Below are positions 31,801-51,211 of a stretch of 64,000 nt of DNA, one piece after another (the stretch's first letter is position 1; every line of letters begins with the position of its first letter). A program made the translations under genes and the position numbers. The notes below the pieces were generated by a model. It was not told the DNA's origin, ran no database searches, and worked only from the letters and a program-made list of their open reading frames with translations. The stretch covers positions 3,087,501-3,151,500 of the forward strand of contig NZ_CP066308.1 in NCBI RefSeq assembly GCF_016406105.1, read 5' to 3'. The stretch comes from Brevibacillus composti. GTDB lineage: Bacteria > Bacillota > Bacilli > Brevibacillales > Brevibacillaceae.

Positions 31801-32674
31801 CAGAGAATACCCGGCCTCGGCATGCTTTTTGGCGAAGCCTTTTGTCGCTCAGATGCGGGCCGGAACCATTCGTTCCATTCCGAGCGACGGAACAAAACGC
31901 CTGCGTCACAGAAGAGATCAGACCGATTTCCTGCTCCGTACCGGCATAGCGGTAGCGGGAAGCGACCTCGCCGTAATAATTGGGATTCACTGGTTCCAGC
32001 GGCATCTCGGCGTGAATCATCCGGATGATTTCCCGCGACGGGACCACCTGATCCAGCTTCCAGCCGTTGCTGTTGCCCACATCCATGAATTCGATGAAGC
32101 GGAGGATATGCCCTTTTTCCCGAAAATAGCGGGCCATCGGCAGGATGTCCTGGTCGTTGACACCGCGCTGCACGACCATATTGATCTTGACGCCAAGTCC
32201 GGCGGCGGCGGCGGCTTCGATCCCCTCCAGGATCTGCTCCACCCGGTAGCCCCTGCCGTTGATCCGCCCGAAGCGCTCATCGTCCAAGCTGTCCAGGCTC
32301 ACGGTCACCCGGTCCAGTCCGGCCGCTTTCAGCTCTTCGGCGTGCCTCGCAAGCAGAGAGCCGTTCGTGGTCATCGCGATATCCCGGACGCCGTCCACTT
32401 GGCGAATCATGCGGATCAGGTCGGCCAGATTCCGCCGCATCAAAGGCTCGCCGCCGGTGATGCGGATTTTTTCCACGCCCAGCGAAGTAAAGATTCCGGT
32501 CAATCTCGTAATTTCTTCAAAGGAAAGCAGCTTGTGCTGCGGCAAAAACGGATAGTCCGGCCCGAATATTTCGGCGGGCATGCAATATTGGCAGCGAAAA
32601 TTGCATTTGTCTGTCACAGAGATGCGCAAATCACGGAGAGGACGTTTTTGTGAATCAAACACTTGCTTTTCCAT
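31706..32674 (-). CDS. moaA: GTP 3',8-cyclase MoaA with missing C-terminal Fe-S domain
   Basis: The first 261 of 322 residues are a standard MoaA, the radical-SAM enzyme that starts pterin cofactor synthesis. Visible parts are the CNFRCQYC cluster (Cys24, Cys28, Cys31), [16 protein letters not shown] and SSVTQAFC. Homology stops just after Cys261. The expected GDCxRxR stretch, the other two cysteines of the second cluster and the C-terminal Gly-Gly are absent, replaced by an unrelated tail running into the 3' end of the MFS gene. The start ATG 32674 has AAAGGAG 9 nt upstream. It is probably impaired or a pseudogene unless the tail is functional. Confidence 0.82.
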
Positions 32675-32719
32675 CGCTGACCACTCCTTTTTTCCCCGAT
32701 GCTTCCGCTGGCCAACCGA

Positions 32720-34642
32720 TCAAACCGGCCAGGGATGGGGCGACAAATATAGAATACTGCCTGAATCTCGACAATGATAGCCCCCCAGCCGCTCTACTTC
32801 CTGGGCAAACTGCGGGGAGCGGATGCATTCCAGCAGCTGCTCTCCTTCCCGGCTGCGGAAAAACGAGCCGCGCATCAACAGATCATACCGCTCTTCGGCG
32901 ACAGGAATGAAATCCAGATTCATCGCCTTGGCCGCGGAGTAGATGCCCAGTCCGACATCTGCCGTACCGCCTGCTACCGCGGCAGCGACGCTCAAATGAG
33001 AGACGGCCTCGCGTGTATAGCCGTAGATCGCTTCCCTGTCGATGCCCTCCTGCCCCAGCAGGTAATCGAGCAAAAGCCGGGTCCCTGCGCCCCGCTGCCG
33101 ATTGATGTAGGTGACGCCGGGCTGGGCCAAATCCGCAACCGTCCTGATCCCCAGCGGATTGCCTTTTTTCACGATCCAGCCCTGCTGGCGGTAGACCAGC
33201 TGCACGAGCGCCACATCCTGGCCGCGAAGGTATTTCTCCACAAACGGCTGATTGTAGGTGCCGCTGCTCTCATCAAACAGATGGATGCCGGCGATATGGG
33301 CCTCGCCTTTTTGAATCGCCATGATTCCGCCCATGCTCCCGACGTGGGAAGAGACGAGGAAGCGGTCGGGACGGGACTTACGGAGCAGCATATCCAGCAC
33401 GTCCATCGTCAGGTCATGGCTGCCGGTCGCCACGATCGTATGGTGAATCTGCTCCAGCGGGCGGTACAGTTCGATCTGAGCCGTCTCTCCCTGCTCGTAG
33501 CCCAGATGGCCGGGCGGGATGCGCAATAGGCCGTCCGCCCGAACCATCGACATCGTGACGCCCGCTGCGCGGGTCAGGGGATTGGCAATGTATTTTCCAT
33601 CAATGCAGCCGACGGTCATGCGGATAAAATCCTCTGCGCCCATGACGGAGACGATGCGCCTGCCGATGGTCGCTTCGATCCGCGGCCGCTCCGGCTCCAT
33701 GCTTCCATAATAATGGTGAATGAGCGAACGGGCAAACCATTCCAGATTTAAGTAGGCGGAGACTGGGTAGCCCGGCAGGCCGATCACCGGCTTGCCCTCG
33801 ACGATGCCGACGACCACCGGCTTGCCGGGGCGGGTCGCAACGCCGTGAGTGAGCACCTCTCCCAGCTCTTCCACCACGTGGACGGTAAAATCCTCCCGTC
33901 CCGCGGATGATCCGGCATTGAGGAGCACCAGGTCGGCCTCCTGCACGGCTTCCCGCAGCGCCTCGCGGATCAGGGCGTAGTCGTCCGCTACGATGCCGCG
34001 CAGGATCGGCTCTGCTCCCCACTCCCGCAAGTATGCGGCAAAGACGGTGCCGTTAAACTCGATAATCTCCCCTTCGGCCACATGCTCCGACGGCGGGATC
34101 AGCTCCGAACCGGTGGGAATGATGACGACCCTCGGCTTCCGGAAGACAGGCACGCTCACGATGCCTCCCGCCAGCAGCGCTCCCAGATCGACCGGACGCA
34201 GCTTGTGCCTCGCGGGGACGATGACCTCGCCGACGACGACATCCTCGCCGATCGGGCGAATATGCTGCCAGGGAGCTGCCGCCTCCAGGATTTCGATCGT
34301 CTCCTCGTCTACCTGATGCACATGCTCGATCATGATCACGGCGTCAAACCCATCCGGGATCGGATCGCCCGTGTCTACCTCTATATAATCCTCGCCCCGC
34401 TTCAGATGAACCGGATGCTGCTCATGGGCCGCGTAGGTTTTCTCCGCTTTGACAGCGATGCCGTCCATCGCGGAAGCGTGGTAGTTGGGCATGGAGACTT
34501 TGGCGTAGATCGGCTCAGCCGTGACCCGCCCCAGGGCCTCGGCTGTGGGAATCACTTCGGTTTTGGGTGAAAAATGAACCCGCTGTTTGATTTTCTCCTG
34601 CGCTTCTCCGAGCGGGGTATCTTCCAAGTAGATTTTCCGCAT
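32720..34642 (-). CDS. moeA: MoeA (molybdopterin molybdotransferase) fused to a PBP-like sensor domain
   Basis: A 640-residue fusion. Residues 1 to about 400 are MoeA, which inserts the metal into adenylylated pterin: SMPNYHASAMDGIAVKA, GDPIPDGFDAVIMIEHV, the NAGSSAGREDF substrate loop and GLPGYPVSAYLN. Residues 410 to the end form a periplasmic-binding-like domain (PF12727 type) with TGSHDLTMD, AGIHLFDE, NRQRGAGTRLLLDYLL and LGGYHC. Similar fusions are known in archaea and bacteria, and the domain may bind oxyanion or cofactor intermediates. Start ATG 34642 with AGGAGG upstream. It lies between canonical moeA and moaA on one strand. Confidence 0.92.
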   Translation of the reverse strand: MRKIYLEDTPLGEAQEKIKQRVHFSPKTEVIPTAEALGRVTAEPIYAKVSMPNYHASAMDGIAVKAEKTYAAHEQHPVHLKRGEDYIEVDTGDPIPDGFDAVIMIEHVHQVDEETIEILEAAAPWQHIRPIGEDVVVGEVIVPARHKLRPVDLGALLAGGIVSVPVFRKPRVVIIPTGSELIPPSEHVAEGEIIEFNGTVFAAYLREWGAEPILRGIVADDYALIREALREAVQEADLVLLNAGSSAGREDFTVHVVEELGEVLTHGVATRPGKPVVVGIVEGKPVIGLPGYPVSAYLNLEWFARSLIHHYYGSMEPERPRIEATIGRRIVSVMGAEDFIRMTVGCIDGKYIANPLTRAAGVTMSMVRADGLLRIPPGHLGYEQGETAQIELYRPLEQIHHTIVATGSHDLTMDVLDMLLRKSRPDRFLVSSHVGSMGGIMAIQKGEAHIAGIHLFDESSGTYNQPFVEKYLRGQDVALVQLVYRQQGWIVKKGNPLGIRTVADLAQPGVTYINRQRGAGTRLLLDYLLGQEGIDREAIYGYTREAVSHLSVAAAVAGGTADVGLGIYSAAKAMNLDFIPVAEERYDLLMRGSFFRSREGEQLLECIRSPQFAQEVERLGGYHCRDSGSILYLSPHPWPV

Positions 34643-34700
34643 GCTTTCCTCCTGCGAATGTTTTCTATCATGGGTGGTTGGACAGGGGATGGGATAGCGT

Positions 34701-35933
34701 TTATTGGATCAGGTATACCTTCACCGTCTCGCCTTCCAGCACACCCTCTTTATTCTCGGGGATCTCCGCGATTCCCTCGCTCTCCACCAGCGTAGAGATC
34801 AACCCCGACTTGCCGAAGACGGGGATCGCCCACAAGCCGTCTGCCCGCTCCTCCAGCTTGACCCGGATGTAGTCGGTCCGCCCTACTGCCGAAGCGACGT
34901 TGCGCGACAGCTTGGCAGACAGCCGCACATCCGTCTGACGGGCGCGGACTCCCTGCAATCTCTCCAATAGCGGAACTGCCAAAAGCTGAAACATGATCTG
35001 CGCGGATACGGGGTGGCCGGGCAAGCCCATCACCGGCTTATCTCCCGCCTTGGCGAGAATCGTCGGCTTGCCCGGCTTGGTAGCGACACCGTGCACGAGG
35101 ACGCCGGGCTCTCCCAGGGACTGCATCACTTGCACCGTAAAGTCCCTCGTGCCCACCGAACTGCCCCCGGACAGGATGAGAACATCCACTTGGGCAAACA
35201 GCTCCCGTGCCCTTGCGGCAAACAGCTCGTAATCATCCCGGACGATGCCCCCCTGGATGACGATGGCGCCGTGCTGCTGGGCGATGGCGCCGACAGTCAC
35301 GCTGTTGATATCCCGCACTTCACCGGGCGCCAGTTCTTTTTTCTCCGTCGGCACGACTTCATCGCCGGTGGAGAGGATCCCGATCGTGGGCCGGGGAAAT
35401 ACCTGCACCTCTGTTCTGCCGATGGCGGACAAGACGCCCAAATCCTGCGGACGCAGCCGGTGGCCGGCCGACATGACCAGCTCCCCGCGCTCCACATCAT
35501 CCCCGGCGCGGATGACATTCTCGCCGGGCGCGACCTGCCGGTACACATTTAACAGCTCGCCGATCTCTTCGACATGCTCAATCATCACCACGCTGTCCGC
35601 GCCTGCCGGAAGCATGCCGCCCGTGGGAATGGCCTGAGCCTGTCCCTCCTTCAGAAGCACCTGTGCCGCCCGCCCCATTTCGATCCGACTGGTAATGTCC
35701 AGAAAGGCGGGCAAGGAATCGGAGGCCCCGTAGGTATCCTGCGCCCTCACGGCAAAGCCGTCTACGGTCGAACGGGCAAAATGGGGAACCTGCTCGCCGG
35801 AGATCACGTCTTCCGCCAGCACCATGCCGCATGCCTCGGTGATCGGCAGCTTGATCGGAGGGCGGAAGGGATGGAATTGTTCGGCGATGATGGACAAGGT
35901 TTCAGAGACGGTTTTTACTTTGAAAAATTTCAT
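34701..35933 (-). CDS. moeA: Molybdopterin molybdotransferase MoeA (stand-alone)
   Basis: A 410-residue canonical MoeA. Landmarks are FARSTVDGFAVRAQDT, MIEHVEEIG, the catalytic-loop motif SGGSSVGTRDF and GLPGHPVSAQIMF. A second MoeA lies directly downstream, and paired MoeAs are thought to separate molybdenum from tungsten use. GGGAGG precedes ATG 35933. It is divergent from the moaD-like gene, so the 79-nt gap holds both promoters. Confidence 0.94.
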   Translation of the reverse strand: MKFFKVKTVSETLSIIAEQFHPFRPPIKLPITEACGMVLAEDVISGEQVPHFARSTVDGFAVRAQDTYGASDSLPAFLDITSRIEMGRAAQVLLKEGQAQAIPTGGMLPAGADSVVMIEHVEEIGELLNVYRQVAPGENVIRAGDDVERGELVMSAGHRLRPQDLGVLSAIGRTEVQVFPRPTIGILSTGDEVVPTEKKELAPGEVRDINSVTVGAIAQQHGAIVIQGGIVRDDYELFAARARELFAQVDVLILSGGSSVGTRDFTVQVMQSLGEPGVLVHGVATKPGKPTILAKAGDKPVMGLPGHPVSAQIMFQLLAVPLLERLQGVRARQTDVRLSAKLSRNVASAVGRTDYIRVKLEERADGLWAIPVFGKSGLISTLVESEGIAEIPENKEGVLEGETVKVYLIQ

Positions 35934-36012
35934 GTCTGCCTCCCTCTTTTTCAGTATGCAGCTTGCTCACTACTTCGACTATAATAAGTAAGAAAAAGGA
36001 GAAAATTCCGAT

Positions 36013-36288
36013 ATGAGAGTAAAGGTATTTGCCAATTTCCGTGAAATCTGCGATGCCAAGTCGGTGGAAGTGCCTACGGATAACGGAAATCGGGTCATCG
36101 ACATTCTTGAGACGCTGATCCGTATGTATCCTGCGTTGGAAGATGAGGTCTTCACACCGGAGCGAACACTCAAACCATTCGTACACGTCTTCCTCAACGG
36201 ACGCAACGTCATTCACGCTGAGGGGCTGGAGACAGAAGTGCAGGAAGATGATCAGTTTGCGCTGTTCCCTCCTGTGGCAGGAGGCTGA
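36013..36288 (+). CDS. moaD: MoaD/ThiS-family sulfur carrier
   Basis: A 91-residue ubiquitin-fold protein with an N-terminal MRVKVFANFRE strand and a C-terminal PPVAGG tail. The Gly-Gly tail is the site of adenylation and thiocarboxylation for pterin dithiolene formation. A TATAAT at 35980-35985 with a weak -35 could be its promoter, and AAAGGAG lies 11 nt before ATG. Next to an aldehyde oxidoreductase gene it is probably the carrier dedicated to that cofactor, with the ThiF-like enzyme at 42135 as its activator. Confidence 0.88.
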   Translation: MRVKVFANFREICDAKSVEVPTDNGNRVIDILETLIRMYPALEDEVFTPERTLKPFVHVFLNGRNVIHAEGLETEVQEDDQFALFPPVAGG

Positions 36289-36289
36289 C

Positions 36290-36598
36290 ATGATCGAAGA
36301 AACACTGGAGCTGCGCGGCATTCCCCTCTCCCATCTGGTCACGTATCTCATCGAGTGCGGCGGCGCGCCTCCTGGAGATGCTGCCGTAGATCGGGCCGGT
36401 AAAGCGCTCAGCGATACGCTCCCTCTCACCATCAGAGGCGAGGGCTGGGAGGCGGACGTGCTGCGGGAGGAGACAGTCAGCATCACCTCCCGCTTTCACG
36501 TCCAGGCTGTGTTTATCCGCTTTCGGGCGGAAGAAGAGGAGCGCCTGGCCCCCGTGCTCAAGCAATTTCGCGTAAAAGTGCTTCGCGTCGGAGGCTGA
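36290..36598 (+). CDS. Unassigned small protein ending in Gly-Gly, co-transcribed with moaD
   Basis: A 102-residue protein starting 1 nt after the moaD stop; its GGAGG ribosome binding site overlaps the end of moaD. No transmembrane segment is seen. The C-terminus reads VLRVGG, so like MoaD it ends in Gly-Gly. It might resemble the MoaD-related C-terminal domain described in Thermus proteins, but I cannot confirm that. The context makes a role in tungsten/molybdenum pterin assembly likely. Confidence 0.75.
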   Translation: MIEETLELRGIPLSHLVTYLIECGGAPPGDAAVDRAGKALSDTLPLTIRGEGWEADVLREETVSITSRFHVQAVFIRFRAEEEERLAPVLKQFRVKVLRVGG

Positions 36599-36654
36599 CC
36601 GCCCGCAGCCACTCTGCCGGTAAACGATCGAAACAAGAAGCAAAAGAGCGGGAA

Positions 36655-36683
36655 AAAGGTGGATGAGGTCTCCACCTTTTTTT
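36655..36683. terminator. Bidirectional terminator between the moaD operon and aor
   Basis: A perfect 10-bp stem (36655-36664 with 36671-36680) has T-runs on both strands. It serves the plus-strand moaD pair and the minus-strand aor gene, which converge here. Confidence 0.88.
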
Positions 36684-36692
36684 CGTTGGCAT

Positions 36693-38501
36693 TTACGCGA
36701 TGCCGAGCTCTTTCAGTTTTTCCTCCGGCACGACGCCATCTACCCAGCCGCGCACCTGGTAATATTCATCCAGCATGATATCCATCCGGCTGACGTGTCC
36801 AGCGCTGTTGCCGGTCGCCGCCTCTTCCGTAAAGCGCTTCGGCAGGTAGTCGTCTTCCCGCTTGTCAAAGCCAGCCAGATTGTTGTAGTGGCGCTCCAGA
36901 TTGTAGATGCGCTCGCCGATTTTCATGACGTCATCGGCTGTAACCGGCACGCCCGTCATGGCGGAATACTGCTCCGCGTAGTTCTCGGCGTTTTCCGAGA
37001 AGGAGGAGAATTTGCAGATATTCATCGAATCGGAGAACGCCAAGAGGTCTTGGAATACCTTCAGCAGCTCGCCTTTTCCTTCTGGCTGCAGGCGGTCGGT
37101 CGGCATCGGAATGCCCGCGATCTCGCTCGCGACCGTATAGCCGCGCAAATGGCAGGCTCCCCGGTTGCTGGTGGCATAGCCCAGCCCGATGCCTTGGATG
37201 CCGCGCGGATCGTAGGCCGGAATCGCTTGCCCCTTGACGACCATGGCCAGATTTTCGTCGCCGAAATACTTGGCCGCGCGCGCTGTTCCCTCGGCGAGAA
37301 CATCGCCGATGCCCCGGCGGAAGACGAGCATCTCGGTCAGTTCGATCATCCGGTCGGCATCGCCCCAATCGATCCGCTCCTCGGTCAAGCCGCGCTCATA
37401 GGCCTCCATCATACAGGAGAGCGTATTTCCGAGCTCGATCGTATCCATCCCGTGCTCGTTGCAGAGATTGATGATGTAGGAGATGGCCGCCGCATCACCC
37501 AGTCCGCAGTTTGCCCCGAGCGCCCAGCCGGACTCGTACTCAAAACTTTCGACGCGGGTCTTGTACTTGCCTTCCTTCACTTCCACTTCCTTTTTGCAGG
37601 CTACCGGACAAGCGTGGCAGGTGTTGTCCGCAACCAGCAGAGTGGCATTGACCGTCTCGCCGCTGTGGCCCTCGGCTCCCTCCCAGTGCGAGAACTTGGA
37701 GTTCATCGCGGGAAGTGCGCCCACTTCGTTGATGATATTGGTGAGGACGTTGGTGCCGTAGACAGAGAGGCCGCCTTTTTTCGGTGCCGTCAGGCCGCCT
37801 TCCATAATCGCCTTGAGCGCTTTCTGGTTGGCTTGTTTATACTCTTCATCCTGCGCTGGCGTCGGCATGTTCCCTTTTTGCGCCGCCTTGATTACGATCG
37901 CTTTCAGCTTTTTGCTGCCTGCGACCGCCCCAGTGCCGCCCCGGCCGGCAGCCCGGTCATTCTCGTTCATAAAGCCCGCGTAGCGAATCAGATTTTCTCC
38001 CGCTTGTCCGATGCAGATCACACTCAGGTCTTCTTTGCCGTAGCGCTCCTGCATGGCTTTGACCGTCGCGCGGGTACCCTGTCCCCAGAGGTCGCTGGCG
38101 TCACGCAACTCGCCCTGGCCGTTTTCGATGTAGAGGTAAACCGGGCGATCGCTCTTTCCTTTGATAATGACGTTGTCGATGCCGGCCCACTTCAGCCGCG
38201 CTGCCGACCATCCGCCCATGTGCGAGTCCGTCACGGTGTTGGTCAGCGGAGATTTGGTCACCATGCAGAGGCGGCCGCTCATCGCCGAACGGGAGCCCGT
38301 CACCGGTCCCGTCATGACACAGAGGATGTTCTCTTCGGAAAACGGTTCCACCTGCGGCCCGTTGTCGTAGACGTATTTCACTCCCAGCCCGCGGCCGCCG
38401 ATATACTTCTTGGCCAATTCCTCATTGATTTCCCGATAATCAACGGCTCCGGAGGAGAGATCGACCAAAATTTCGCGGTTTTTAAAACCTCCCAGGTTCA
38501 T
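36693..38501 (-). CDS. aor: Aldehyde:ferredoxin oxidoreductase (tungsten-pterin enzyme)
   Basis: A 602-residue AOR-family oxidoreductase. These enzymes oxidise aldehydes to acids with ferredoxin, using a tungsten bis-pterin and one 4Fe-4S cluster. The N-terminal domain has LVDLSSGAVDYREI and GGRGLGVKYVYD; GRGGTGAVAGSKKLKAIVIK contacts the pterin. The cluster ligands are CHACPVAC plus a late Cys in MNICKFSSF. The start ATG 38501 has GGGGG 9 nt upstream; earlier ATGs lack a site. A tungstate transporter and maturation genes flank it. Confidence 0.94.
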   Translation of the reverse strand: MNLGGFKNREILVDLSSGAVDYREINEELAKKYIGGRGLGVKYVYDNGPQVEPFSEENILCVMTGPVTGSRSAMSGRLCMVTKSPLTNTVTDSHMGGWSAARLKWAGIDNVIIKGKSDRPVYLYIENGQGELRDASDLWGQGTRATVKAMQERYGKEDLSVICIGQAGENLIRYAGFMNENDRAAGRGGTGAVAGSKKLKAIVIKAAQKGNMPTPAQDEEYKQANQKALKAIMEGGLTAPKKGGLSVYGTNVLTNIINEVGALPAMNSKFSHWEGAEGHSGETVNATLLVADNTCHACPVACKKEVEVKEGKYKTRVESFEYESGWALGANCGLGDAAAISYIINLCNEHGMDTIELGNTLSCMMEAYERGLTEERIDWGDADRMIELTEMLVFRRGIGDVLAEGTARAAKYFGDENLAMVVKGQAIPAYDPRGIQGIGLGYATSNRGACHLRGYTVASEIAGIPMPTDRLQPEGKGELLKVFQDLLAFSDSMNICKFSSFSENAENYAEQYSAMTGVPVTADDVMKIGERIYNLERHYNNLAGFDKREDDYLPKRFTEEAATGNSAGHVSRMDIMLDEYYQVRGWVDGVVPEEKLKELGIA

Positions 38502-38523
38502 CGCGTACGTCCCCCTTTTTCCC

Positions 38524-38546
38524 ATATTGTTGAATTCAAACAATAT
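38524..38546. promoter_or_regulatory. Palindrome in the aor leader
   Basis: ATATTGT and ACAATAT arms (38524-38530 and 38540-38546) flank a TGAATTCA core with one extra base. It lies 23 nt upstream of the aor start codon, so a bound protein could block expression. A TATAAT on the minus strand at 38607-38612 would put the palindrome in the leader. Confidence 0.5.
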
Positions 38547-38680
38547 TCACCTAGTTCGACTTTTATGTGGGATCTCCTCCCGCTAGACCTGCAATGCATC
38601 GGCAAAATTATAAATTTTTCGATTATTTTTTCGGTCGAATCTCTTGCCAATCGAATCCTTCCTCAAGTATGTTAGTTTTA

Positions 38681-38730
38681 ACCAAATCATGCCAAACGAT
38701 TCCCAACAAAACCAAACGAAACCAAATTAT
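38681..38730 (+). repeat. Five phased 10-bp repeats upstream of the HTH-sensor regulator
   Basis: Five consecutive decamers start at 38681, 38691, 38701, 38711 and 38721, with a loose consensus RCCAAAYBAT. The third is the most divergent. The 10-nt period matches one helical turn, which suggests cooperative binding on one face of DNA. They sit 22 nt before the regulator's start codon and between it and aor, so they could control either or both genes. Confidence 0.65.
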
Positions 38731-38752
38731 GCGGATGAAAAGGGGGGGTGTC

Positions 38753-39682
38753 ATGGAAAGGGCGTACCTGACACCGGAGGAGGTCGCTTCGGTATTAAAA
38801 CTGTCCAAGTACACGGTCTATGAAATGATCAAGCGAAAGGAGCTGCCCGCAGCTAAAATTGGACGAGCCCTCCGCATTCTTCGCGCCGATCTGGACCAAT
38901 TCATGCGCCAGCACAAATCGACGCAAGATGTTTCGGCTCCGATTCGCAGCGGCGCCGTCCCGCCTGACAGCGGGAAAACGCAGCTGGAAATCTACTTTGC
39001 CGGCAGCCATGATCTTTCGCTCGACCTGCTCAGCCGGGCCCTGGGAAAGCGGGGGATCACGCTGTTTCCGGCCTATTCCGGAAGCATGGACGGACTGATC
39101 GAGCTGTACAAGGGGCGGGTCGATATGGCGGGCTGTCATCTGCTGGATCAGATGACGGGCGAGTACAATCTGCCGTATATCCGTTCGATGCTGCCCAATG
39201 AGCAAGTGGCTGTCGTCAATCTGGTCAGCCGTTGGCAGGGCTTTATCGTGCCGACGGGCAATCCGCGGCTGATTACCAGCTGGGAGGAGTTCCTGTCGGG
39301 CCGGCATCGCATCGTCAATCGTCAGCGCGGCTCGGGGACGCGGGTCTTGCTCGACTTCAAGCTCCGGCAAGCGGGCCTCTCTGCCGAGAGCATTCCCGGC
39401 TACGAGCGAGAGGTGAGCACCCATTACGAGCTCGCCTCGGCCGTGCTGCGCGGAGAAGCCGACGCCGCGCTGGGGATCGAGAGCGCCGCCAGAGGGCTGG
39501 GGCTAGATTTTTACCCGGTGCAGGAGGAGCGCTACGATCTGGTGATCCCGGCCAGACTGCTAAACCAGGAGCGCTTTCGCGTATTTCTGGAGGTGCTCCG
39601 CGATCCGGCTTTCAAGCAGCAAGTAGTGGCTCTCGGCGGCTACGGGATCGCTTCCACCGGAAAAATCATCGACCGCACGTGA
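38753..39682 (+). CDS. Excisionase-type HTH regulator with PBP-like sensor domain
   Basis: A 309-residue one-component regulator. Residues 1 to about 55 are an excisionase/MerR-like helix-turn-helix (LTPEEVASVLKLSKYTVYEM, KIGRALRI). Residues about 80-309 are a PF12727-type binding domain with GSHDLSLD, AGCHLLDQ, NRQRGSGTRVLLDF, EERYDLV and LGGYGI. The same domain is fused to MoeA in this cluster. Probably it senses tungstate, molybdate or a cofactor precursor and controls aor and tup genes. ATG 38753 has a G-rich site directly upstream. Confidence 0.88.
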   Translation: MERAYLTPEEVASVLKLSKYTVYEMIKRKELPAAKIGRALRILRADLDQFMRQHKSTQDVSAPIRSGAVPPDSGKTQLEIYFAGSHDLSLDLLSRALGKRGITLFPAYSGSMDGLIELYKGRVDMAGCHLLDQMTGEYNLPYIRSMLPNEQVAVVNLVSRWQGFIVPTGNPRLITSWEEFLSGRHRIVNRQRGSGTRVLLDFKLRQAGLSAESIPGYEREVSTHYELASAVLRGEADAALGIESAARGLGLDFYPVQEERYDLVIPARLLNQERFRVFLEVLRDPAFKQQVVALGGYGIASTGKIIDRT

Positions 39683-39722
39683 GGATATTCTTTTCAAGCT
39701 GATTTCAAAGGAGATGAGTGAG

Positions 39723-40658
39723 ATGCATCGCAACCGTTCCCTGTTTACCTGTATGGTGATTCTCTTGAGCTTGTTTCTCGCCGCCTGTTCGACGGCATCG
39801 GTCGGCCCCGCAGCCACCTCCCCCTCCGCTCAGGGCAACGCACCCCAGTCTGCTGCTGCGGGAGAGGCGCCGCCGACAGGTGACGCCAATCCATCCGCGC
39901 AAACCGGCGCGAACGCATCATCAGCCGGCCAGGAGATCGTCCTGGCGACCACGACCAGCACGCAGGACTCCGGCTTGCTGGATGCCCTGCTGCCGCATTT
40001 TGAGCAAAGTACCGGGATCAAGGTAAAAGTGATTGCGGTCGGCACCGGCCAGGCAATCAAACTGGGAGAAGACGGCAATGCGGATGTCGTCCTCGTCCAT
40101 TCGCGCAAGGCGGAAGACGAATTCGTCTCCAAAGGCTTCGGGATCAATGCCCACGATGTCATGTACAACCAGTTTTACATCGTCGGTCCCGAGCAGGATC
40201 CGGCGGGAGTCAAATCCGCCAAAAAAGCTGCCGAGGCCTTCGCCGCCATCGCTCGGAGCCAGGCGCTGTTCATCTCTCGCGGCGACGATTCCGGCACGGA
40301 CAAAAAAGAGAAGAGCATCTGGAAAGAGGCGGGGATCACGCCTGAGGGCGACTGGTATCTCTCCTCGGGCCAGGGAATGGGCGCTACCCTGCAAATGGCG
40401 GATGAAAAAGGCGCCTATACCCTGACGGATGAAGCCACCTTTCTGTCGCGGAAAATGAATCTGCAGGTCCTCATGCAGGGGGACCAATCGCTTTTGAACC
40501 CGTACGGCATCATCCAGGTCAAATCGACGGCAAAGCCGGCAGAAGCGGAAAAGCTGATCCAGTTCTTCGTCGGAGCGGAGGGGCAGAAACGAATCGGCGA
40601 GTTTGGCGTGGACAAATACGGCAAAGGGCTGTTTGTCCCTGCGGCACAGAAGCGCTAG
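39723..40658 (+). CDS. tupA: Tungstate ABC transporter substrate-binding lipoprotein TupA
   Basis: A 311-residue lipoprotein. The signal peptide ends at LFLAAC (about Cys21), followed by a Ser/Ala/Pro/Gly-rich linker. The oxyanion pocket signature TTTSTQDSG is present, with GTGQAI, SRGDDSGTDKKE and the PYGIIQV segment of TupA proteins. Its motifs favour TupA over ModA. ATG 39723 is chosen because GGAG lies 9 nt upstream; an ATG at 39714 is too close to it. It starts 40 nt after the regulator. Confidence 0.92.
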   Translation: MHRNRSLFTCMVILLSLFLAACSTASVGPAATSPSAQGNAPQSAAAGEAPPTGDANPSAQTGANASSAGQEIVLATTTSTQDSGLLDALLPHFEQSTGIKVKVIAVGTGQAIKLGEDGNADVVLVHSRKAEDEFVSKGFGINAHDVMYNQFYIVGPEQDPAGVKSAKKAAEAFAAIARSQALFISRGDDSGTDKKEKSIWKEAGITPEGDWYLSSGQGMGATLQMADEKGAYTLTDEATFLSRKMNLQVLMQGDQSLLNPYGIIQVKSTAKPAEAEKLIQFFVGAEGQKRIGEFGVDKYGKGLFVPAAQKR

Positions 40659-40670
40659 GAGCCCCGCCGC

Positions 40671-41336
40671 ATGCATATGACTCCTGAGGTATGGGAGATC
40701 ATCTGGCTCTCCCTGAAGGTGACGACTACTGCCATCCTGCTCGGCGCGTGCGCGGGCATCCCTCTGGGTGCCTTTCTCGGCCTGTATTCTTTCCCGGGAA
40801 AACGTCTCGCCGTCATCCTGATCTACACCTGCATGGGACTGCCTCCGGTACTGGTAGGCGTACTCGTCTACCTGCTGCTCTCCCGCTACGGCCCGCTCGG
40901 CTCCCTCGGCCTTCTGTTCACCCCGGAGGCGATGGTCATCGCTCAGTTCGTGCTGGTCACTCCCATCCTCGCCGGCCTGACCATGTCGGCTGTCCATTCC
41001 AAGGAGCGAGCATACTGGGAAACAGCCAAGAGCCTCGGGGCCAGCCCCTGGCAGCTGGTCGCCACGATCATCCGCGAAGCGCGCAAAGGCATCTGGGCGG
41101 GAGTGGCGGCCGCCTATGGACGAGCGATCTCCGAAGTGGGCGCCGTGATGCTGGTGGGGGGAAATATCGAGCATCACACCCGCGTCATGACGACCGCGAT
41201 CATTCTGGAGACGAGAATGGGCAACTTCAGTGCCGGACTGCAGCTCGGCCTGGTGCTCTTGTTGATCAGCTTTTTGTTTAACAGCTTCCTCGTCTCGGGA
41301 GTGCTCCAACAATTAAAAAACAACGGGCGGAGATGA
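40671..41336 (+). CDS. tupB: Tungstate ABC transporter permease TupB
   Basis: A 221-residue membrane permease with about five helices. The EAA-like loop is present in its usual place (TAKSLGASPWQLVATIIREA), followed by GRAISEVGAVMLVGGNI. It starts 12 nt after tupA with AGGAG upstream. It couples TupA to the TupC ATPase. Confidence 0.93.
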   Translation: MHMTPEVWEIIWLSLKVTTTAILLGACAGIPLGAFLGLYSFPGKRLAVILIYTCMGLPPVLVGVLVYLLLSRYGPLGSLGLLFTPEAMVIAQFVLVTPILAGLTMSAVHSKERAYWETAKSLGASPWQLVATIIREARKGIWAGVAAAYGRAISEVGAVMLVGGNIEHHTRVMTTAIILETRMGNFSAGLQLGLVLLLISFLFNSFLVSGVLQQLKNNGRR

Positions 41337-41340
41337 CGAC

Positions 41341-42081
41341 ATGGCATACCTGGAGCTTGAGCACCTGCAAGTAGCCTTTGCAGGAAAAACAGTGCTGCAT
41401 GTAGAAAAGGCGTCTTTTAACCGCGGCAAAATCTACGGGATCGTCGGTCCCAGCGGCTCTGGAAAAAGCACGCTGCTGCGCGTGCTGAGCCTGTTGGAGA
41501 GACCGGCGGCCGGCTGGTTGAACGTTTTCGGCGAGAACATCCATCTGCCGTCCCTCACGCATGCCGGCGGCCTTTCGCTGCAGCGCAGAATCGGCTATGT
41601 GCAGCAAAAGCCGACGATGTTTGACGCCACCGTTTTTGACAATGTGGCGCTCGGCCTGCGCTACCGCGGCATGGCTCGCGAGGAGATCCAGACGCGGGTC
41701 GGCGAAGCGCTCCGTCTGGTAGAGCTGGAGCATACGGCTACCCAGCGGGCGCATACCCTGTCTGGAGGAGAGGCGCAGCGGATCGCTCTCGCCCGCGTGC
41801 TCGTCTATCAGCCCGACCTGCTTTTTCTCGACGAACCGACAGCCAACCTCGATCCATACCACATCGCCATTTTCGAGCGCGTGATTCAAGCGATTCATCA
41901 AGAGCGGCAAACCACCGTATTGATTGTGACGCATAATTTGCAGCAGGCCCGGCGTCTGACCGACCATTGTCTGTTTATCCATAAGGGAAGCATCGTGGAG
42001 CGCGGGGAGACGGAGGCTTTCTTCGCACAGCCGCAAACCAGCGAACTGGATGACTTCCTCTGCGGCCGGATGATTTACTGA
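41341..42081 (+). CDS. tupC: Tungstate ABC transporter ATP-binding protein TupC
   Basis: A 246-residue ATPase: Walker A GPSGSGKST, Q-loop QQKP, signature LSGGEAQR, Walker B LLFLDEPTANLD and switch histidine VTHN. No extra C-terminal MOP/TOBE domain is present, unlike ModC, which suits a tungstate importer. It starts 4 nt after tupB. Confidence 0.92.
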   Translation: MAYLELEHLQVAFAGKTVLHVEKASFNRGKIYGIVGPSGSGKSTLLRVLSLLERPAAGWLNVFGENIHLPSLTHAGGLSLQRRIGYVQQKPTMFDATVFDNVALGLRYRGMAREEIQTRVGEALRLVELEHTATQRAHTLSGGEAQRIALARVLVYQPDLLFLDEPTANLDPYHIAIFERVIQAIHQERQTTVLIVTHNLQQARRLTDHCLFIHKGSIVERGETEAFFAQPQTSELDDFLCGRMIY

Positions 42082-42134
42082 CAAGTGATTGGCCCGAGAT
42101 CAAATGCGATTGAAAGCGGAAAAGAGGGGAACCC

Positions 42135-43172
42135 ATGAATCCGGATCAAAAGCAACGCTATTCCCGGCAGATACGATTCGCCCCGATCGGCAGGGAGGGT
42201 CAGGAGCGGCTCGGACAAAAGAAAGCTGTCATCGTCGGCATGGGCGCACTCGGAACGGTGCTGGCCAATCACATGGTCCGCGCCGGAGTGGGACATGTGC
42301 GGTTGATCGACCGCGATTTTGTCGAGGAAAGCAATCTTCAGAGGCAGATGCTTTACGATGAGGAAGATGCCCGCCAGCATCTGCCGAAAGCCGTGGCCGC
42401 GACGCAAAAATTGCAGGCCGTCAATTCCGGCATCACGATCGAAGGCGTGATCGCCGACCTCGGGCCGGTCAATGCCGAGTCCTTGCTCGCCGACGCCGAC
42501 CTGATCCTCGACGGCACGGATAATTTCCAGGTCCGGTATCTGATCAACGACGTGGCCGTCAAGCATCAGATCCCCTGGGTCTATGGCGGCGTGGTCAGCG
42601 CGAGAGGCATGTTTGCCGTCATCCGGCCGGGCATCACCCCTTGCTTCCGCTGCCTCTTCCCTCACGCGCCGGCCGGCCGGGGCGAGACCTGCGACACGGT
42701 CGGCGTCATCGGCCCCGCCGTCCATCTCGTCGCCTCCTACCAGGCCACCGAAGGCTTGAAATTGCTTGTCGGTGCCGAAGACAGGCTGAATCCCCACCTG
42801 GAGCAGTTCGACATCTGGCACAATGATCAGCTGCAGATGGATATCCGCGAGGGAAAAAACCCCAACTGTCCCGCCTGCGCGAAGAGGAGCTTCAGCTACC
42901 TGGACAGCGGAGATGCGGAGACGGAGGATTTCGCTACGCTCTGCGGCAGGGACACGGTGCAAATCAGTCCGACACATCCGCGAACGGTCGATCTGGAGCA
43001 GCTGGCCGAGAGGTTTCAGCGCATCGGACGCGTGGAAAAAAATCCGTTTTTGCTCCGCTTTCACGCGGACGATTATACGCTTGTCTTTTTCAAAGATGGA
43101 CGGGTGCTCGTACAGGGAACGGATGACATCGGCGTGGCCCGGATCTTGTACGCCAGGTATGTGGGACATTAA
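42135..43172 (+). CDS. moeB: ThiF/MoeB-family adenylyltransferase
   Basis: A 345-residue E1-like enzyme that adenylates the C-terminal Gly-Gly of a sulfur carrier. The nucleotide motif is VGMGALGTVLA, the catalytic-site residues include DRDFVEESNLQRQ and ETCDTVGVIGP, and zinc ligands are the CFRC and CPAC pairs. About 90 C-terminal residues extend past the core and look like no rhodanese domain. It closes the tup operon, so its likely partners are the Gly-Gly proteins at 36013 and 36290. Confidence 0.9.
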   Translation: MNPDQKQRYSRQIRFAPIGREGQERLGQKKAVIVGMGALGTVLANHMVRAGVGHVRLIDRDFVEESNLQRQMLYDEEDARQHLPKAVAATQKLQAVNSGITIEGVIADLGPVNAESLLADADLILDGTDNFQVRYLINDVAVKHQIPWVYGGVVSARGMFAVIRPGITPCFRCLFPHAPAGRGETCDTVGVIGPAVHLVASYQATEGLKLLVGAEDRLNPHLEQFDIWHNDQLQMDIREGKNPNCPACAKRSFSYLDSGDAETEDFATLCGRDTVQISPTHPRTVDLEQLAERFQRIGRVEKNPFLLRFHADDYTLVFFKDGRVLVQGTDDIGVARILYARYVGH

Positions 43173-43218
43173 GCTCAGGAAAAACAGAGAAGTCCAATCA
43201 GGCGAAGCTGCAATCAAA

Positions 43219-43264
43219 AAAGGTGCTGTCCGGCTATTTGCGGACAGCACCTTTCTCTTTTTTT
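43219..43264 (+). terminator. Terminator of the tup-moeB operon
   Basis: A 14-bp stem (43219-43232 with 43241-43254) is followed by a T-rich tract up to 43264 on the plus strand. It separates the tungsten island from the convergent thrS. Confidence 0.92.
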
Positions 43265-43293
43265 GATCTAACACCCAAACGGAGTAACCCGTT

Positions 43294-45207
43294 TTATTTC
43301 ATCTCGGCAATCTCTTTTTGGATCTTGTCGAGGAAGGCCGCCACGGTCATGGCGCCTTCGTCACCCACACCGCGCTTGCGTACGGAGAGGGTGCCCTCTG
43401 CCACTTCGTTTTCCCCGATGACCAGCATGTACGGGATTTTTTGCACTTGCGCTTCGCGGATTTTGTAGCCGATTTTTTCGTTGCGCGCATCCAGTTCTAC
43501 GCGAATGCCCGCCTGCTCCATTTGTTCCTTCACTTTTTGCGCATACTCCACATGAACCTCGTTGATGGTCATCAGGCGCACCTGCACCGGCGTGAGCCAA
43601 ACCGGGAACGCGCCTGCGTAGTGCTCGATCAGGATGCCGATAAAGCGCTCCATCGAACCGTACATCGCGCGGTGCAGAACGACCGGGCGGTGCTTTTCGT
43701 TGTCCTGGCCGACATAGCTCAGGTCGAACTTCTCCGGCATCTGGAAGTCGAGCTGGATGGTGCCGCATTGGTGGCGGCGCTTCAGCGCGTCTGTGATCTG
43801 GAAGTCGATCTTCGGACCGTAGAAGGCGCCGTCTCCCTCCTTGATCTCATACGGCATGCCAGCCTGCTCCAACACGTTTTTCAGCGAGGTTTCGGCGATC
43901 TCCCACAGCTCGTCGGAACCCATCGAGTCTTCGGGACGCGTGGACAATGCGACACTGTACTCGAAGCCAAACACCTTGTAGATCCGGTCGATCAGTTGGA
44001 TCATGTTTTTGATTTCGCTCTCGATCTGGTCAGGACGCACGAAGACGTGGGCATCGTCCTGGCAGAAAGTGCGCACCCGGAGCAAGCCGTTCAGCGCGCC
44101 GGAGTATTCGTGGCGGTGCACCTGGCCGAATTCGGAATAGCGGATCGGCAGGTCCCGGTAAGAGTGCATTTTGTTTTTGTAAATCAGCATATGGCCCGGA
44201 CAGTTCATCGGCTTGAGCGCATACGTGGTGTCGTCCACCTCGGAGAAGTACATGTTTTCATGATAGTGATCCCAGTGGCCGGACTGGAGCCAGAGACGCT
44301 GATTCATGATAAACGGCGTGCGCACCTCTGTGTAATGGGCGAGCTGCTGCAAGCGGCGGGAGAACTGTTCCAGCTCGTTGCGGACAGTGAAGCCGTGCGG
44401 CAGGAAGAAAGGCATGCCGGGCGCTTCTTCGGAGAACATGAACAGCTCCAGCTCTTTGCCCAATTTGCGGTGATCCCGTTTTTTCGCTTCTTCGATGAAA
44501 TGCAGGTACTCGTCCAGCTCCGCTTTTTTCGGCCAGGCTGTGCCGTATACGCGCTGCAATACCTGGTTCTCCGACTTGCCGCGCCAGTATGCGCCGGCTA
44601 CGCTCATCAGCTTGAAGGCCTTGATATAGCCGGTAGACGGCAGATGCGGGCCGCGGCACAGGTCGAAAAATTCACCCTGCTCATAGATGGTGATGACTGC
44701 ATCCTCTGGCAGATCGCGGATCAGCTCCAGCTTCAGATGATCGTTCAGCTCGGAGAACATGGCCAGCGCTTCTTCGCGGCTTACCTCTTTGCGGCGGATC
44801 GGCAGGTCCTGCTTGATGATTTTTTCCATCTCGGCTTCGATTTTGGGGAGGTCGTCCGGCGTGAGTGCTGCCGGGATGTCCATATCGTAGTAGAAGCCGT
44901 CTTCGATGACAGGGCCGATTCCCAGTCTCACCTCTTTGCCGTACAGTCGCTTGACTGCCTGGGCCAGCAGGTGAGCGGTGCTGTGCCGATAGACTTCCAG
45001 ACCGTCGGCGGAGTCCAGCGTCACGATTTCGACAGCGGCATCCTCCTCGACTGGCGTATAGAGATCGACGACCTTGCCGTTTATTTTTCCGGCTACCGCC
45101 TTTTTCTTCAGGCTGGAGCTGATGGAGCCGGCGATTTCTTCGATGGAGACGCCTGCTTCATAGGGACGGACGGCGCCGTCGGGAAAAGTCACATGAATTT
45201 GTGCCAC
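43294..45207 (-). CDS. thrS: Threonyl-tRNA synthetase
   Basis: A 637-residue class II synthetase. It has TGS and editing domains (HSTAHLLAQAVKRLYG), motif 2 FGQVHRHEYSGALNGLLRVR, the zinc/active-site MNCPGHM region, and motif 3 HRAMYGSMERFIGILIEHYAGAFP followed by the anticodon domain. The GTG start at 45207 has AGGAAG 8 nt upstream; the longer open frame runs into the T-box terminator. Expression is set by the leader at 45245-45593. Confidence 0.97.
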   Translation of the reverse strand: MAQIHVTFPDGAVRPYEAGVSIEEIAGSISSSLKKKAVAGKINGKVVDLYTPVEEDAAVEIVTLDSADGLEVYRHSTAHLLAQAVKRLYGKEVRLGIGPVIEDGFYYDMDIPAALTPDDLPKIEAEMEKIIKQDLPIRRKEVSREEALAMFSELNDHLKLELIRDLPEDAVITIYEQGEFFDLCRGPHLPSTGYIKAFKLMSVAGAYWRGKSENQVLQRVYGTAWPKKAELDEYLHFIEEAKKRDHRKLGKELELFMFSEEAPGMPFFLPHGFTVRNELEQFSRRLQQLAHYTEVRTPFIMNQRLWLQSGHWDHYHENMYFSEVDDTTYALKPMNCPGHMLIYKNKMHSYRDLPIRYSEFGQVHRHEYSGALNGLLRVRTFCQDDAHVFVRPDQIESEIKNMIQLIDRIYKVFGFEYSVALSTRPEDSMGSDELWEIAETSLKNVLEQAGMPYEIKEGDGAFYGPKIDFQITDALKRRHQCGTIQLDFQMPEKFDLSYVGQDNEKHRPVVLHRAMYGSMERFIGILIEHYAGAFPVWLTPVQVRLMTINEVHVEYAQKVKEQMEQAGIRVELDARNEKIGYKIREAQVQKIPYMLVIGENEVAEGTLSVRKRGVGDEGAMTVAAFLDKIQKEIAEMK

Positions 45208-45244
45208 AAGCCATACTTCCTTTCCAGTTTCAGTTTTTTTCATT

Positions 45245-45593
45245 TCAGGGAAATCAAAAAAGCACTGCATCCCCAAAGGGACGAGTGCTTGTTACCCGCG
45301 GTACCACCCTTGTGAACTGCCTCTCTCCTCTGCTGCTGTGCGCCAGGCCATGCCGGGCCGCGGGCGGAGAAGAGATCAAGGCAGAACGCTTTGATCCAAA
45401 TAACGGTGTAAACCGGCTCGCCGATACTGCAGAGGGAAGAGACTCCGCTCTGTTCGTTCCCGGCGGCTACTCGAAGGGGGTAAAGCAATACCTGCATGCA
45501 GCGGGCTTCCAGCCTGTGACCCGCCTCTCTGAAGCTGCGACAGCATTCTTCATGTCCTTCTCATTGTATTTTCCGTGTGGAGTTGTTTTTCGT
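45245..45593 (-). ncRNA. T-box leader riboswitch of thrS
   Basis: Read on the minus strand, the leader contains a stem I apical part (AGAGAGGCGGG, GGAAGCCCGC), the invariant T-box AGGGTGGTACCGCG (complement near 45296-45309) and a terminator hairpin with a T6 run (45256-45289). Uncharged tRNA-Thr should stabilise the antiterminator. A specifier ACC can be proposed in the CTTTACC segment but is not proven. The 387-nt gap is fully explained by this element. Confidence 0.93.
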
Positions 45594-45623
45594 ATTATAA
45601 AGGAGTCGGTTTGTTCCCGTCAA
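45594..45623 (-). promoter_or_regulatory. Sigma-A promoter of the thrS T-box transcript
   Basis: On the minus strand: TTGACG (45618-45623), an 18-nt spacer and a perfect TATAAT (45594-45599). The promoter overlaps the last codons of ytxC. Confidence 0.8.
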
Positions 45624-46512
45624 GTATGCGTCTGCCCGACAGGCAAAGGGAGCAGGAATGACAGGTGACCGTCCGCGCTTCGAAAATGCTTCTCACGGTC
45701 TGGATCAACGGGAGCCTGTCCTCGCCCAGATGAAGGATGATCCGCTCCGGCGCCAGCGTGACCAGGGCACTGACCAGATAATCCTCTTCCCGGCAGCGCT
45801 GCTCCTCTACGCACAGGATCGCATCCAGCTGCTCCAGAAAGATTCGATTCCCCTGTTTGTCATAGAGATGGAAAGGTTTGTCCACACTAGGAACGACGTG
45901 CACCACTTCCTGCTTCGTCTCCTGATCCGCGACGAAGTAACGCAGGAGGTCCACGAATTCCTGGTACTGCTGATCCTCCAGATAGTCGTCCAGACCGGTC
46001 TCCACCAGTTCGAACAGGTCATTCCAGTGCTCCTGCAGCCGAAAGCGGACAAAACCGAGCACGTTTAACTGCCGCTCGTCTTCGAAGTAGTCAAAGACCT
46101 TTCGGTAGACCTTCGCTTTCCTCGTCGACATGTGCAGGGCACTTTCGGTGAAATCTTGTTCCAGACAGAGCCGATGGATAAACGGGAGGACAGACGGCCA
46201 CTCCTCTTCGAGCAGCTCCGCCTCCATCAAGTCGGCTGCCATCTCTTCCATGACTTCCGGCTCTTTGACGCGGAGGACCCACTCGGCCACTGCCAATGCG
46301 ATAAACGCCCGCGCCCAGTCGATCGTCTCCGCGTTGTACTCTTCGCGGCACCAGCTCTGGAAGCGGAACAATCTATAGTCACCCTGCTCGTATTCCTCAT
46401 ATGTAATGCATACCGGATCGGTCTTGACCCGCTCCGTCAAGTCCCCCAAAATGGAGCGAAACGCATCACAATGAGCAGGGATATTTTCAAATAACAGGGC
46501 GTACACTTGCAT
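45595..46512 (-). CDS. ytxC: Sporulation protein YtxC
   Basis: A 305-residue protein of the YtxC family, named as sporulation-associated. It is acidic, rich in Glu/Leu, has no signal peptide and ends with a cysteine pair (CHSCSLC). In B. subtilis ytxC is also just upstream of thrS, which supports the assignment. ATG 46512 has GGGGGGAT upstream; seven earlier in-frame codons lack a site. Confidence 0.82.
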   Translation of the reverse strand: MQVYALLFENIPAHCDAFRSILGDLTERVKTDPVCITYEEYEQGDYRLFRFQSWCREEYNAETIDWARAFIALAVAEWVLRVKEPEVMEEMAADLMEAELLEEEWPSVLPFIHRLCLEQDFTESALHMSTRKAKVYRKVFDYFEDERQLNVLGFVRFRLQEHWNDLFELVETGLDDYLEDQQYQEFVDLLRYFVADQETKQEVVHVVPSVDKPFHLYDKQGNRIFLEQLDAILCVEEQRCREEDYLVSALVTLAPERIILHLGEDRLPLIQTVRSIFEARTVTCHSCSLCLSGRRILDGNKPTPL

Positions 46513-46610
46513 CTTGATCCCCCCAATCCGCAATGTAGTTACAGTATATGTCCCACCAGGGGCGATATACTTTTAAACGGATGGAAAGAGCGGGAAGGTT
46601 GCAGGGCAAA

Positions 46611-46645
46611 TAAAAACACGACGCCTGCGAGCGGCGCCGTGTACG
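46611..46645 (-). terminator. Terminator after mqnC
   Basis: A stem of ACACG/CGTGT and CGCC/GGCG (46616-46642) with one mismatch is followed on the minus strand by TTTTTATTT. It lies 32 nt past the mqnC stop. Confidence 0.82.
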
Positions 46646-46676
46646 TTTTTCTTTTCTCTGGGCATGGTGCAACTGG

Positions 46677-47783: not shown

Positions 47784-47922
47784 AAGGATCACTTCCCTCG
47801 CAACATGTCGTCCACGCTTCATCGTATCATAAAAGCAGCCGGGATAGAACCCCTGCAGGCTCCCCGGGAAGCAGAAAGCAGCCCTGCCGGCGGCAAGACT
47901 GCTTTGCTCTCGCATCTCACGT

Positions 47923-48144
47923 TTATGCTTCGAAACCGATTTCCTCATAGACTTCCGGGTCCCAATAGATGACGGACTGCCCGAGCGGCAGATTCATCTC
48001 GCGGGCTCCGTTTGGTTTGCCGTTGAAGTAAATAATCTCCGTAACCGATACCCGATCTCCCCGCACGTCGATTTCCCCTTTGAACTCCAGCGCCGTACCA
48101 TTTGGCGCATAGAAGGTGACTTTCCCCGATCCCAGTGTTTTCAT
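47923..48144 (-). CDS. Small hypothetical protein
   Basis: A 73-residue protein with beta-strand-like alternation and no membrane segment. ATG 48144 is supported by a strong GGGGGAGG site 6 nt upstream; the frame is open for 15 more codons without one. It is followed by mqnC 139 nt later. No family was recognised. Confidence 0.6.
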   Translation of the reverse strand: MKTLGSGKVTFYAPNGTALEFKGEIDVRGDRVSVTEIIYFNGKPNGAREMNLPLGQSVIYWDPEVYEEIGFEA

Positions 48145-48222
48145 CCGGTACCTCCCCCATGTGGTCTGTACCTCTATAGTAGTAGACAATCTTTCCCAGC
48201 GTCAATGCACACGGCAGACTTT

Positions 48223-49287: not shown

Positions 49288-49513
49288 CGAATCGATTCCT
49301 CCTTTTTCAAAATCTCTAACAGTATGTCCCTTTTTTCTGGCAAATAGAAGCAAGCTCCCCTGCGAATTTGCCCGGAAGGCTGTAACTCTTTTCGCCGCCA
49401 AACGTAGTACCAGACATATCCCCTCGTACAAGGCATATATAGAACTACAGAAACCACCCGCTTTCCTGTATAATGGAAAGAAGGTCAAGGATAATTCAAT
49501 TGAGGAGACGCTC

Positions 49514-50083: not shown

Positions 50084-50102
50084 CTGCGGAATAAAAGAGA
50101 GC

Positions 50103-50145
50103 AACGCGCCCGGGAGCGGATCACTTCTCCCGGGCGCGTTTTCTT
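50103..50145 (+). terminator. Terminator after the VTT-domain gene
   Basis: A perfect 14-bp GC-rich stem (50103-50116 with 50127-50140) is followed by TTTTCTTT on the plus strand. Confidence 0.93.
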
Positions 50146-51199: not shown

Positions 51200-51211
51200 A
51201 TTCTATATAAG

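Follow-up and report, generated by a model that had tools for sequence, protein, structure and literature searches.

The window, a 64,000-nucleotide stretch of DNA from Brevibacillus composti analyzed here as a whole, carries a divergent pair of genes: one for an aldehyde ferredoxin oxidoreductase (aor), and one for a regulator that precedes genes resembling a tungstate uptake operon (tupABC). The gap between the two contains a row of five 10-base units. The features are listed below.

36693-38502, minus strand: divergent aldehyde ferredoxin oxidoreductase gene (tungsten oxidoreductase, aor), from a domain match
38681-38730, plus strand: array of five decamers, proposed operator, aligned in 13 Brevibacillus sequences and recurring in distant tup-class relatives
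38753-39682, plus strand: regulator gene with HTH_17 and PBP_like domains (TaoR-type architecture), from domain matches and a predicted model
39714-40658, plus strand: tupA-like gene (tungstate-binding protein); best NCBIfam match TupA at 219.9 bits, under the cut-off of 400
40671-41336, plus strand: tupB-like permease gene; TupB at 169 bits, under the cut-off of 320; a general model for ABC permeases exceeded its threshold
41341-42084, plus strand: tupC-like ATPase gene, named by position; general ABC ATPase matches only, below cut-off
42135-43172, plus strand: ThiF/MoeB-like gene that follows tupC and may belong to its operon

The first-pass annotation had reported five consecutive 10-bp units at exactly these coordinates, in the gap shared by divergent aor and the regulator gene, and this observation was confirmed. 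The aor reading frame as listed extends to a TTG at 38543, and we consider the ATG at 38502 the likelier start. A segment of about 19.3 kb that includes the array (31889-51215, from a moeA-PBP gene to past a thrS-like gene) has a second copy 116.8 kb downstream on the same contig (C1:3236159-3255485) with 99.8-99.98% identity, which is either a recent duplication or an assembly artifact; two probes nearer the window's ends (200-1400 and 62500-63800) were single copy. The moeA-PBP gene (32720-34642) encodes a MoeA-PBP_like fusion that shares a G-S-H-D stretch with the tungstate-class regulators described below, and a second, plain MoeA gene adjoins it (34701-35933). An 18-base tandem repeat lies at 48457-48559 and a 45-base one at 52735-52832.

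The regulator and its known relatives

The regulator has 309 residues, with HTH_17 (PF12728) at residues 5-54 (E = 1.1e-17) and PBP_like (PF12727) at residues 100-283 (E = 5e-69). Its predicted structure (mean pLDDT 87, 14 sequences) consisted of a winged HTH, made up of two helices, a wing of two strands and a helix, followed by a disordered linker at residues 56-75 and a PBP fold. The best solved matches to this model were LysR-type regulators and ABC binding proteins, including a molybdenum-binding one. By sequence, no solved structure matched the whole regulator at E <= 0.1, and the HTH alone gave repeated weak matches to one chain only (CAP REPEAT). Named Brevibacillus orthologues were 68-80% identical to the regulator at the protein level.

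An N-terminal HTH_17 and a C-terminal PBP_like domain in one protein is the architecture of TaoR, a named family of regulators of tungstoenzymes and of molybdate/tungstate transport (Rajeev et al. 2019, Environ Microbiol 21:784, as cited in passages of PMC11980592 and PMC10102598); the name tupR is used for such an HTH_17 plus PBP-like regulator in a passage of PMC10102598. The likeness extends to tungsten regulation and to the link with aor and tungstate uptake, and a divergent aor with downstream tupA/tupB-like genes was found at all 13 of the Brevibacillus tup-class loci. The characterized TaoR member, DVU3193, is from Desulfovibrio vulgaris, whereas the window regulator is from Brevibacillus. 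The window regulator is probably a member of this family, and since the family is already known, novelty is limited to that of a variant.

BldC of Streptomyces, like the window regulator, has a winged HTH of the HTH_17/MerR-like (excisionase-like) group and binds direct repeats, arranging itself head to tail on 9-base repeats of varying number (excerpts of PMC5859096). However, the BldC repeats read AATTXXXX(C) and BldC is a winged HTH without an effector domain, whereas here the spacing is 10, the core is CAAAY and a PBP_like sensor domain is present. RdfS and Xis, winged HTH proteins of the same kind as the window regulator, form filaments on DNA, with RdfS placed in HTH group 17, but they act in excision; the excerpts of PMC11963761 describe no sensor domain, and for RdfS no consensus motif. 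By analogy with these proteins, a row of 10-base units would fit a head-to-tail lining with one monomer per unit, and we class the window operator as a variation on the way BldC uses direct repeats. ModE resembles the window regulator, by analogy of function, in regulating molybdate transporter genes, but it has a different HTH type and TOBE sensor domains (passages of PMC11980592), and the window protein matched no TOBE domain and no LysR-type HTH. Among the titles and abstract openings surveyed, a set that lay outside the founding TaoR paper, we recognized no account of phased decamers or of two unit spellings for this family.

The decamer array and its recurrence among relatives

The five units read, in order and with no gaps between them, ACCAAATCAT GCCAAACGAT TCCCAACAAA ACCAAACGAA ACCAAATTAT. 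The consensus first proposed for them, RCCAAAYBAT, fits three units in full, the unit at 38711 with 1 mismatch and the unit at 38701 with 4. Adjoining units are identical at 6-7 of 10 positions, and the flanking decamers at 38671 and 38731 at 2-3. Tandem Repeats Finder reported a period of 10 at 38692-38726 (score 42). At lag 10, a 30-base window with 21 matches occurred nowhere else in the 64 kb but at the array; lags 9 and 12 likewise attained 21/30 somewhere within the 64 kb, so the array by itself is not extraordinary. Dinucleotide shuffling of the 200 bases upstream never reached the real value (0 of 500 shuffles; p = 0.002, the lowest value attainable with this number of shuffles). In the alignment of 13 Brevibacillus sequences, the array of three (L001-L003) has a 4-base gap relative to the rest. 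The weightier support for the array is its recurrence in relatives.

Relatives were collected by a protein search of 41 relatives and 398 genomes of the phylum, from which full-length matches were taken among the matches listed, 32 of these being extra stretches. Of 95 loci collected, 91 were kept (L057, L058, L063 and L081 were dropped), and subtraction of two duplicates left 89. Peptide patterns run on deposited genomes gave four loci, L063 by its HTH only. Over the 89 upstream regions, the best 30-base window averaged 19.7 matches at lag 10 and 17.2 at lag 20, compared to 13.1-15.9 for the remaining lags from 4 to 24, and in 50 of the 89 no other lag equaled lag 10. Among 24 representatives with less than 60% identity, lag 10 was significant at p <= 0.05 in 15 and at p <= 0.01 in 11; the nine without lag-10 significance were L016, L030, L034, L040, L059, L076, L078, L084 and L085. 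Tup-class relatives at approximately 38-48% protein identity had equal spacing and a similar unit. Nine named plasmid records supplied ten gaps, of which only four reached p <= 0.05 (Niallia, 0.002; Cereibacter, 0.008; Peptoclostridium, 0.012; S. meliloti, 0.022); outside Bacillota, 2 of 8 gaps did so. An array with exact 10-base spacing is present in the window and recurs before relatives of the regulator. Conservation in orthologous regions, on which the first-pass annotation had staked its reading, was therefore found.

Distances between good tup-class units were mainly 5, 10, 15, 20, 25 and 30 and hardly ever 21 or 31. These distances fall on multiples of 5, which indicates a period of 10.0 rather than 10.5, and the 5-base component shows each unit to be made of two similar halves. 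The description of one helical turn per unit is therefore nearly but not exactly right; with a unit of 10.0 bases on a B-DNA turn of 10.5, the bound face would drift by approximately 17 degrees at each unit. The view that such a period is rare in operators needs correcting, as short-period direct repeats are already known for this type of HTH from the 9-base repeats of BldC.

Two classes of regulator and of unit

We aligned 88 of the regulator sequences (L078 was excluded) and found two types of sensor pocket. The tup-class pocket, in 22 of the 88, has G-S-H at residues 84-86 and Q191, with P106 in 18 of these 22; the other type, in 66, has x-G-Q, R106 and E191 or D191. Nearly all of the G-S-H proteins (21/22) directly precede tupA/tupB-like genes. 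The exception, L085, had no tup genes in the stretch fetched and no detectable array (p = 0.36), and its pocket motif is of the tungstate class. Of the x-G-Q proteins, 38 of 66 have a divergent permease or ATPase gene that is 25-36% similar to tupB/tupC, a count for which many of the other stretches were too short to judge divergent genes. In the window genome itself, a paralogue of the regulator (C1:2623766) stands divergent from modA and modB, both recognized by models over their cut-offs, and from a modC-like ATPase gene; for other members of its class the label mod is applied by analogy. The sensor had been annotated as one for tungsten/molybdenum. This needs correcting to a sensor most likely of the tungstate class, because the window regulator heads a tupABC-like operon and carries the pocket signature of that class, while its paralogue is divergent from modABC.

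In a tree of 36 representatives, the tup and mod classes lay on opposite sides of one branch (support 99/99). One branch separates both classes, and the split is therefore a single historical event whose correlates are not independent evidence. Residue 34 in the wing was S, A, Q, F or another residue in the 21 tup-operon proteins, whereas 62 of the remaining 67 proteins had Y there; it was rejected as the recognition residue for the spellings because of that same single split.

A four-unit model with fixed spacing was learned for each class, with clusters weighted equally. The tup-class model (22 loci, 8 clusters) scored 25.3 bits per cluster at spacing 10, with a unit of n-C-a-A-A-C/T-n-A-A-A, and 15.4, 15.2, 13.1 and 12.8 bits at spacings 8, 9, 11 and 12, respectively. 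The mod-class model (66 loci, 12 clusters) scored 13.6 bits at spacing 10, with a unit resembling ATAACTAA, and 11.2, 11.0, 9.3 and 9.1 bits at the same four spacings. When each cluster was left out in turn, 7 of the 8 tup clusters beat their shuffles (p <= 0.007, taken as the median over at most four members), L085 being the failure, and the members shown of those same seven held-out clusters scored above spacings 7-9 and 11-13. For the mod class, only 3 of 12 clusters passed, and 9 of the 12 had a first displayed member whose score was higher at another spacing. Mod relatives have (T/C)ATAAC-type units and form the statistically weaker class; their spelling is mixed by eye, so a single model fits the class poorly. 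The best mod-class support came from the Brevibacillus cluster, L091, L094 and the named record of Niallia taxi. The class was correctly assigned from the units in 17 of 20 clusters. Unit spelling and pocket signature both track the tup and mod neighborhoods.

Arrays were also found in trans. We ran a three-unit mod-class pattern, with at most 3 mismatches, against 25 genomes. Among these, the 16 from Brevibacillus (G000-G015) had matches in the regulator gap in every case, at one second locus in 10 and nowhere else, compared to 2 matches for the backward control. Among the nine other genomes, G033 had one match and G027 one control match. At seven of the second loci (L112-L115 and L119-L121, near 3250-3700), the array lies just ahead of a small gene, with near-identical DNA behind it; in L112 this gene encodes 105 residues with an HD_3 match that is over the cut-off but partial. 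L118 has a homologue of the L112 protein, with an array too and no domain match. In L116 and L117 (near 3340-3500), from two other Brevibacillus genomes, the mod-class array precedes a different small gene, identified over the cut-off in L117 as DUF7660. No NCBIfam model matched the proteins behind the second mod-class arrays over its cut-off. The L112-type small gene is a candidate unknown gene of molybdenum metabolism.

A tup-class pattern tuned to the window matched in 11 of the 25 genomes. In the window genome it found the array only, as six overlapping matches across both copies of the duplicated segment. The orthologous array was matched in G001 and G008 and missed in G003, G007, G009 and G011, the remaining searched genomes with a tup-class orthologue; matches elsewhere occurred in G003, G005, G006, G008, G011, G012, G013 and G014. 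G027 had many simple-repeat matches, as did its control. A general tup-class pattern applied to ten genomes matched at the regulator in G036, G037 and G248 and gave no match in seven; control matches numbered 2 in G036, 2 in G037, 1 in G431 and 0 in G248. In G248 this pattern occurred at the regulator promoter, at one second array 6 kb away and at no other place.

G248:C55:93064-93112: second tup-class array (L136), preceding an operon of S-layer, FecCD, ABC ATPase and Peripla_BP_2 genes

The operon behind this array is possibly a second tungstate importer; from its families, it could be a second oxyanion importer of the MolBC-A type.

One further reading takes all of these features together, and we advance it tentatively, with somewhat more doubt than belief. 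Regulators of this kind in Bacillota might share an operator grammar of exact 10-base rows, in which spelling, pocket, array length and orphan arrays would be jointly meaningful. In such a grammar, CCAAAC versus CATAAC/TATAAC spelling would keep the tungstate and molybdate circuits of one cell apart, and the pocket split of G-S-H, mostly P106 and Q191 versus x-G-Q, R106 and E/D191 would match it; array length would set cooperativity, and orphan arrays would flag unknown genes of tungsten and molybdenum metabolism.

Position of the array and the proposed operator

Promoter-like elements were located on both sides of the gap, as listed here.

38644-38649, plus strand: -35-like box TTGCCA of the regulator-tup operon, spacer 18, from the Brevibacillus alignment
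38668-38673, plus strand: -10-like box TATGTT, with 7 bases from the box end to the array, from the Brevibacillus alignment
38622-38650, minus strand: possible aor promoter TTGGCA-N17-AATAAT, by eye kept in L001-L003 only

The combination TTGCY-N17/18-TATGTT was present upstream in 12 of the 13 Brevibacillus tup-class loci (with TATGGT in L009) and absent from L012; in L004, L007 and L010 this pair was ranked second by promoter score. With these boxes at 38644-38649 and 38668-38673, transcription is predicted to start at approximately 38680, in which case the array would cover the first 50 or so transcribed bases. The 22 bases from the end of the array to the regulator ATG (38753) are too short to hold a promoter. 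The array had been described as lying before the sensor gene; it does lie upstream of the regulator gene, and more precisely it is probably within the transcript. Its place after a conserved -10-like box is repeated in the other Brevibacillus loci, where the unit model put the array 8-24 bases past such a box.

Elsewhere the position varies. In L014, L045 and L079, the array stops 3-4 bases ahead of a TTGACA/T box (spacing 17), and in L077, L013 and L084 it stops 11-24 bases ahead of the -35 box; promoter scoring gave no clear promoter in L016 and L090. At the second G248 locus too, the array by eye leads straight into a TTGACA. Repression would be possible from either position, and activation hardly from downstream of the -10 box. 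BldC represses whiI while protecting -50 to -80 (an excerpt of PMC5859096). The variation counts against the repressor reading proposed below, as the six arrays upstream of -35 boxes would suit an activator too. On the aor side, the array would lie about 70 to 115 bases upstream of the candidate start site. Two blocks of the aor leader, TTCGAC (38555-38560) and TTTTTCGATTATTTTT (38616-38631), are strongly conserved in the 13 aligned Brevibacillus sequences and are either sites of another regulator or pieces of the aor promoter.

That distance would allow a dual switch, in which plentiful tungstate leads the array both to repress the tup operon and to activate aor. In Desulfovibrio vulgaris, TaoR reportedly switches aor on and tupABC off when tungsten is high. 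The gap is shared with divergent aor, the arrays that abut -35 boxes in L014, L045, L079 and, by eye, at the second G248 locus are compatible with an activator, and a passage of PMC11980592 credits TaoR, by citation, with control of tungsten aldehyde oxidoreductase. However, the proposed aor promoter is seemingly kept in three loci only, and tup loci that lack aor (L013, L014, L016, L045, L077, L079, L084 and L090) mostly have arrays. In B. massiliensis, which has a tungsten enzyme gene, regulator and tupABC in the same layout as the window, qPCR showed that tungstate lowers tupA mRNA and molybdate lowers modA mRNA, but mRNA of the tungsten enzyme gene (WOR) did not respond to tungsten or molybdenum (portions of PMC9424855). 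The array therefore need not serve aor, and we consider a dual switch unlikely.

The remaining alternatives dispense with the regulator or with DNA binding. Phased A-runs bend DNA, and A-rich units phased at 10 bases might tune the promoter through intrinsic curvature, or as DNA resembling an upstream element, with no dedicated protein. This is highly improbable, as the C/Y positions within the unit are conserved, unit type tracks regulator class in 17 of 20 clusters, and arrays in trans, as found with the mod-class and the general tup-class patterns, are restricted to one or two places per genome; moreover, A-runs mostly 3 long at every 5 bases should produce bends that largely cancel. The predicted leader position in Brevibacillus would equally permit the repeats to act in the 5' leader transcript, bound by a protein or forming a riboswitch, but the array lies upstream of the predicted -35 box in 6 of the 8 other array-bearing tup loci (L013, L014, L045, L077, L079 and L084), and we regard an RNA element as extremely improbable. 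A search for known RNA elements found no Rfam family at gathering score in 32000-44000. A functionless low-complexity repeat, made by chance or slippage, would agree with adjoining units that match at only 6-7 of 10 positions and with the similar maxima of other lags in the 64 kb; it is scarcely credible given the spacing and similar unit kept before tup-class relatives at 38-48% protein identity.

We conclude that the array is likely the operator of the downstream regulator, which on sequence grounds would be an autorepressor of the TaoR family that responds to tungstate and lines up head to tail on the DNA. The first-pass reading is thereby partly supported: its core, that the array serves the neighboring excisionase-type regulator as operator, has good support at the sequence level from recurrence before orthologues, kept spacing and arrays in trans, and four points around it were corrected. 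We infer binding by the regulator, its head-to-tail row, tungstate as the ligand and the repressive sign. Each decamer would bind one excisionase-type winged HTH, and the exact 10-base step would place the monomers head to tail on nearly one face of the DNA, where they would aid each other's binding. The likely signal would be tungstate bound by the PBP_like domain. At ample internal tungstate, a row of regulators over the first 50 or so transcribed bases would block the regulator-tupABC operon, giving autorepression and a shut-off of tungsten uptake; at low tungstate the row would disassemble and uptake would restart. By analogy, tungstate-dependent repression through the array would account for the tupA response of B. 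massiliensis.

If this reading is true, the array would be a signature by which tungstate and molybdate regulons could be read straight from genomes, which would be useful in bacteria whose tungsten biology is little known. The two unit spellings in one genome would permit tests of specificity and cooperativity, and the window regulator would enlarge, by a ligand-responsive member, the small set of regulators known to line up in a row on short direct repeats.
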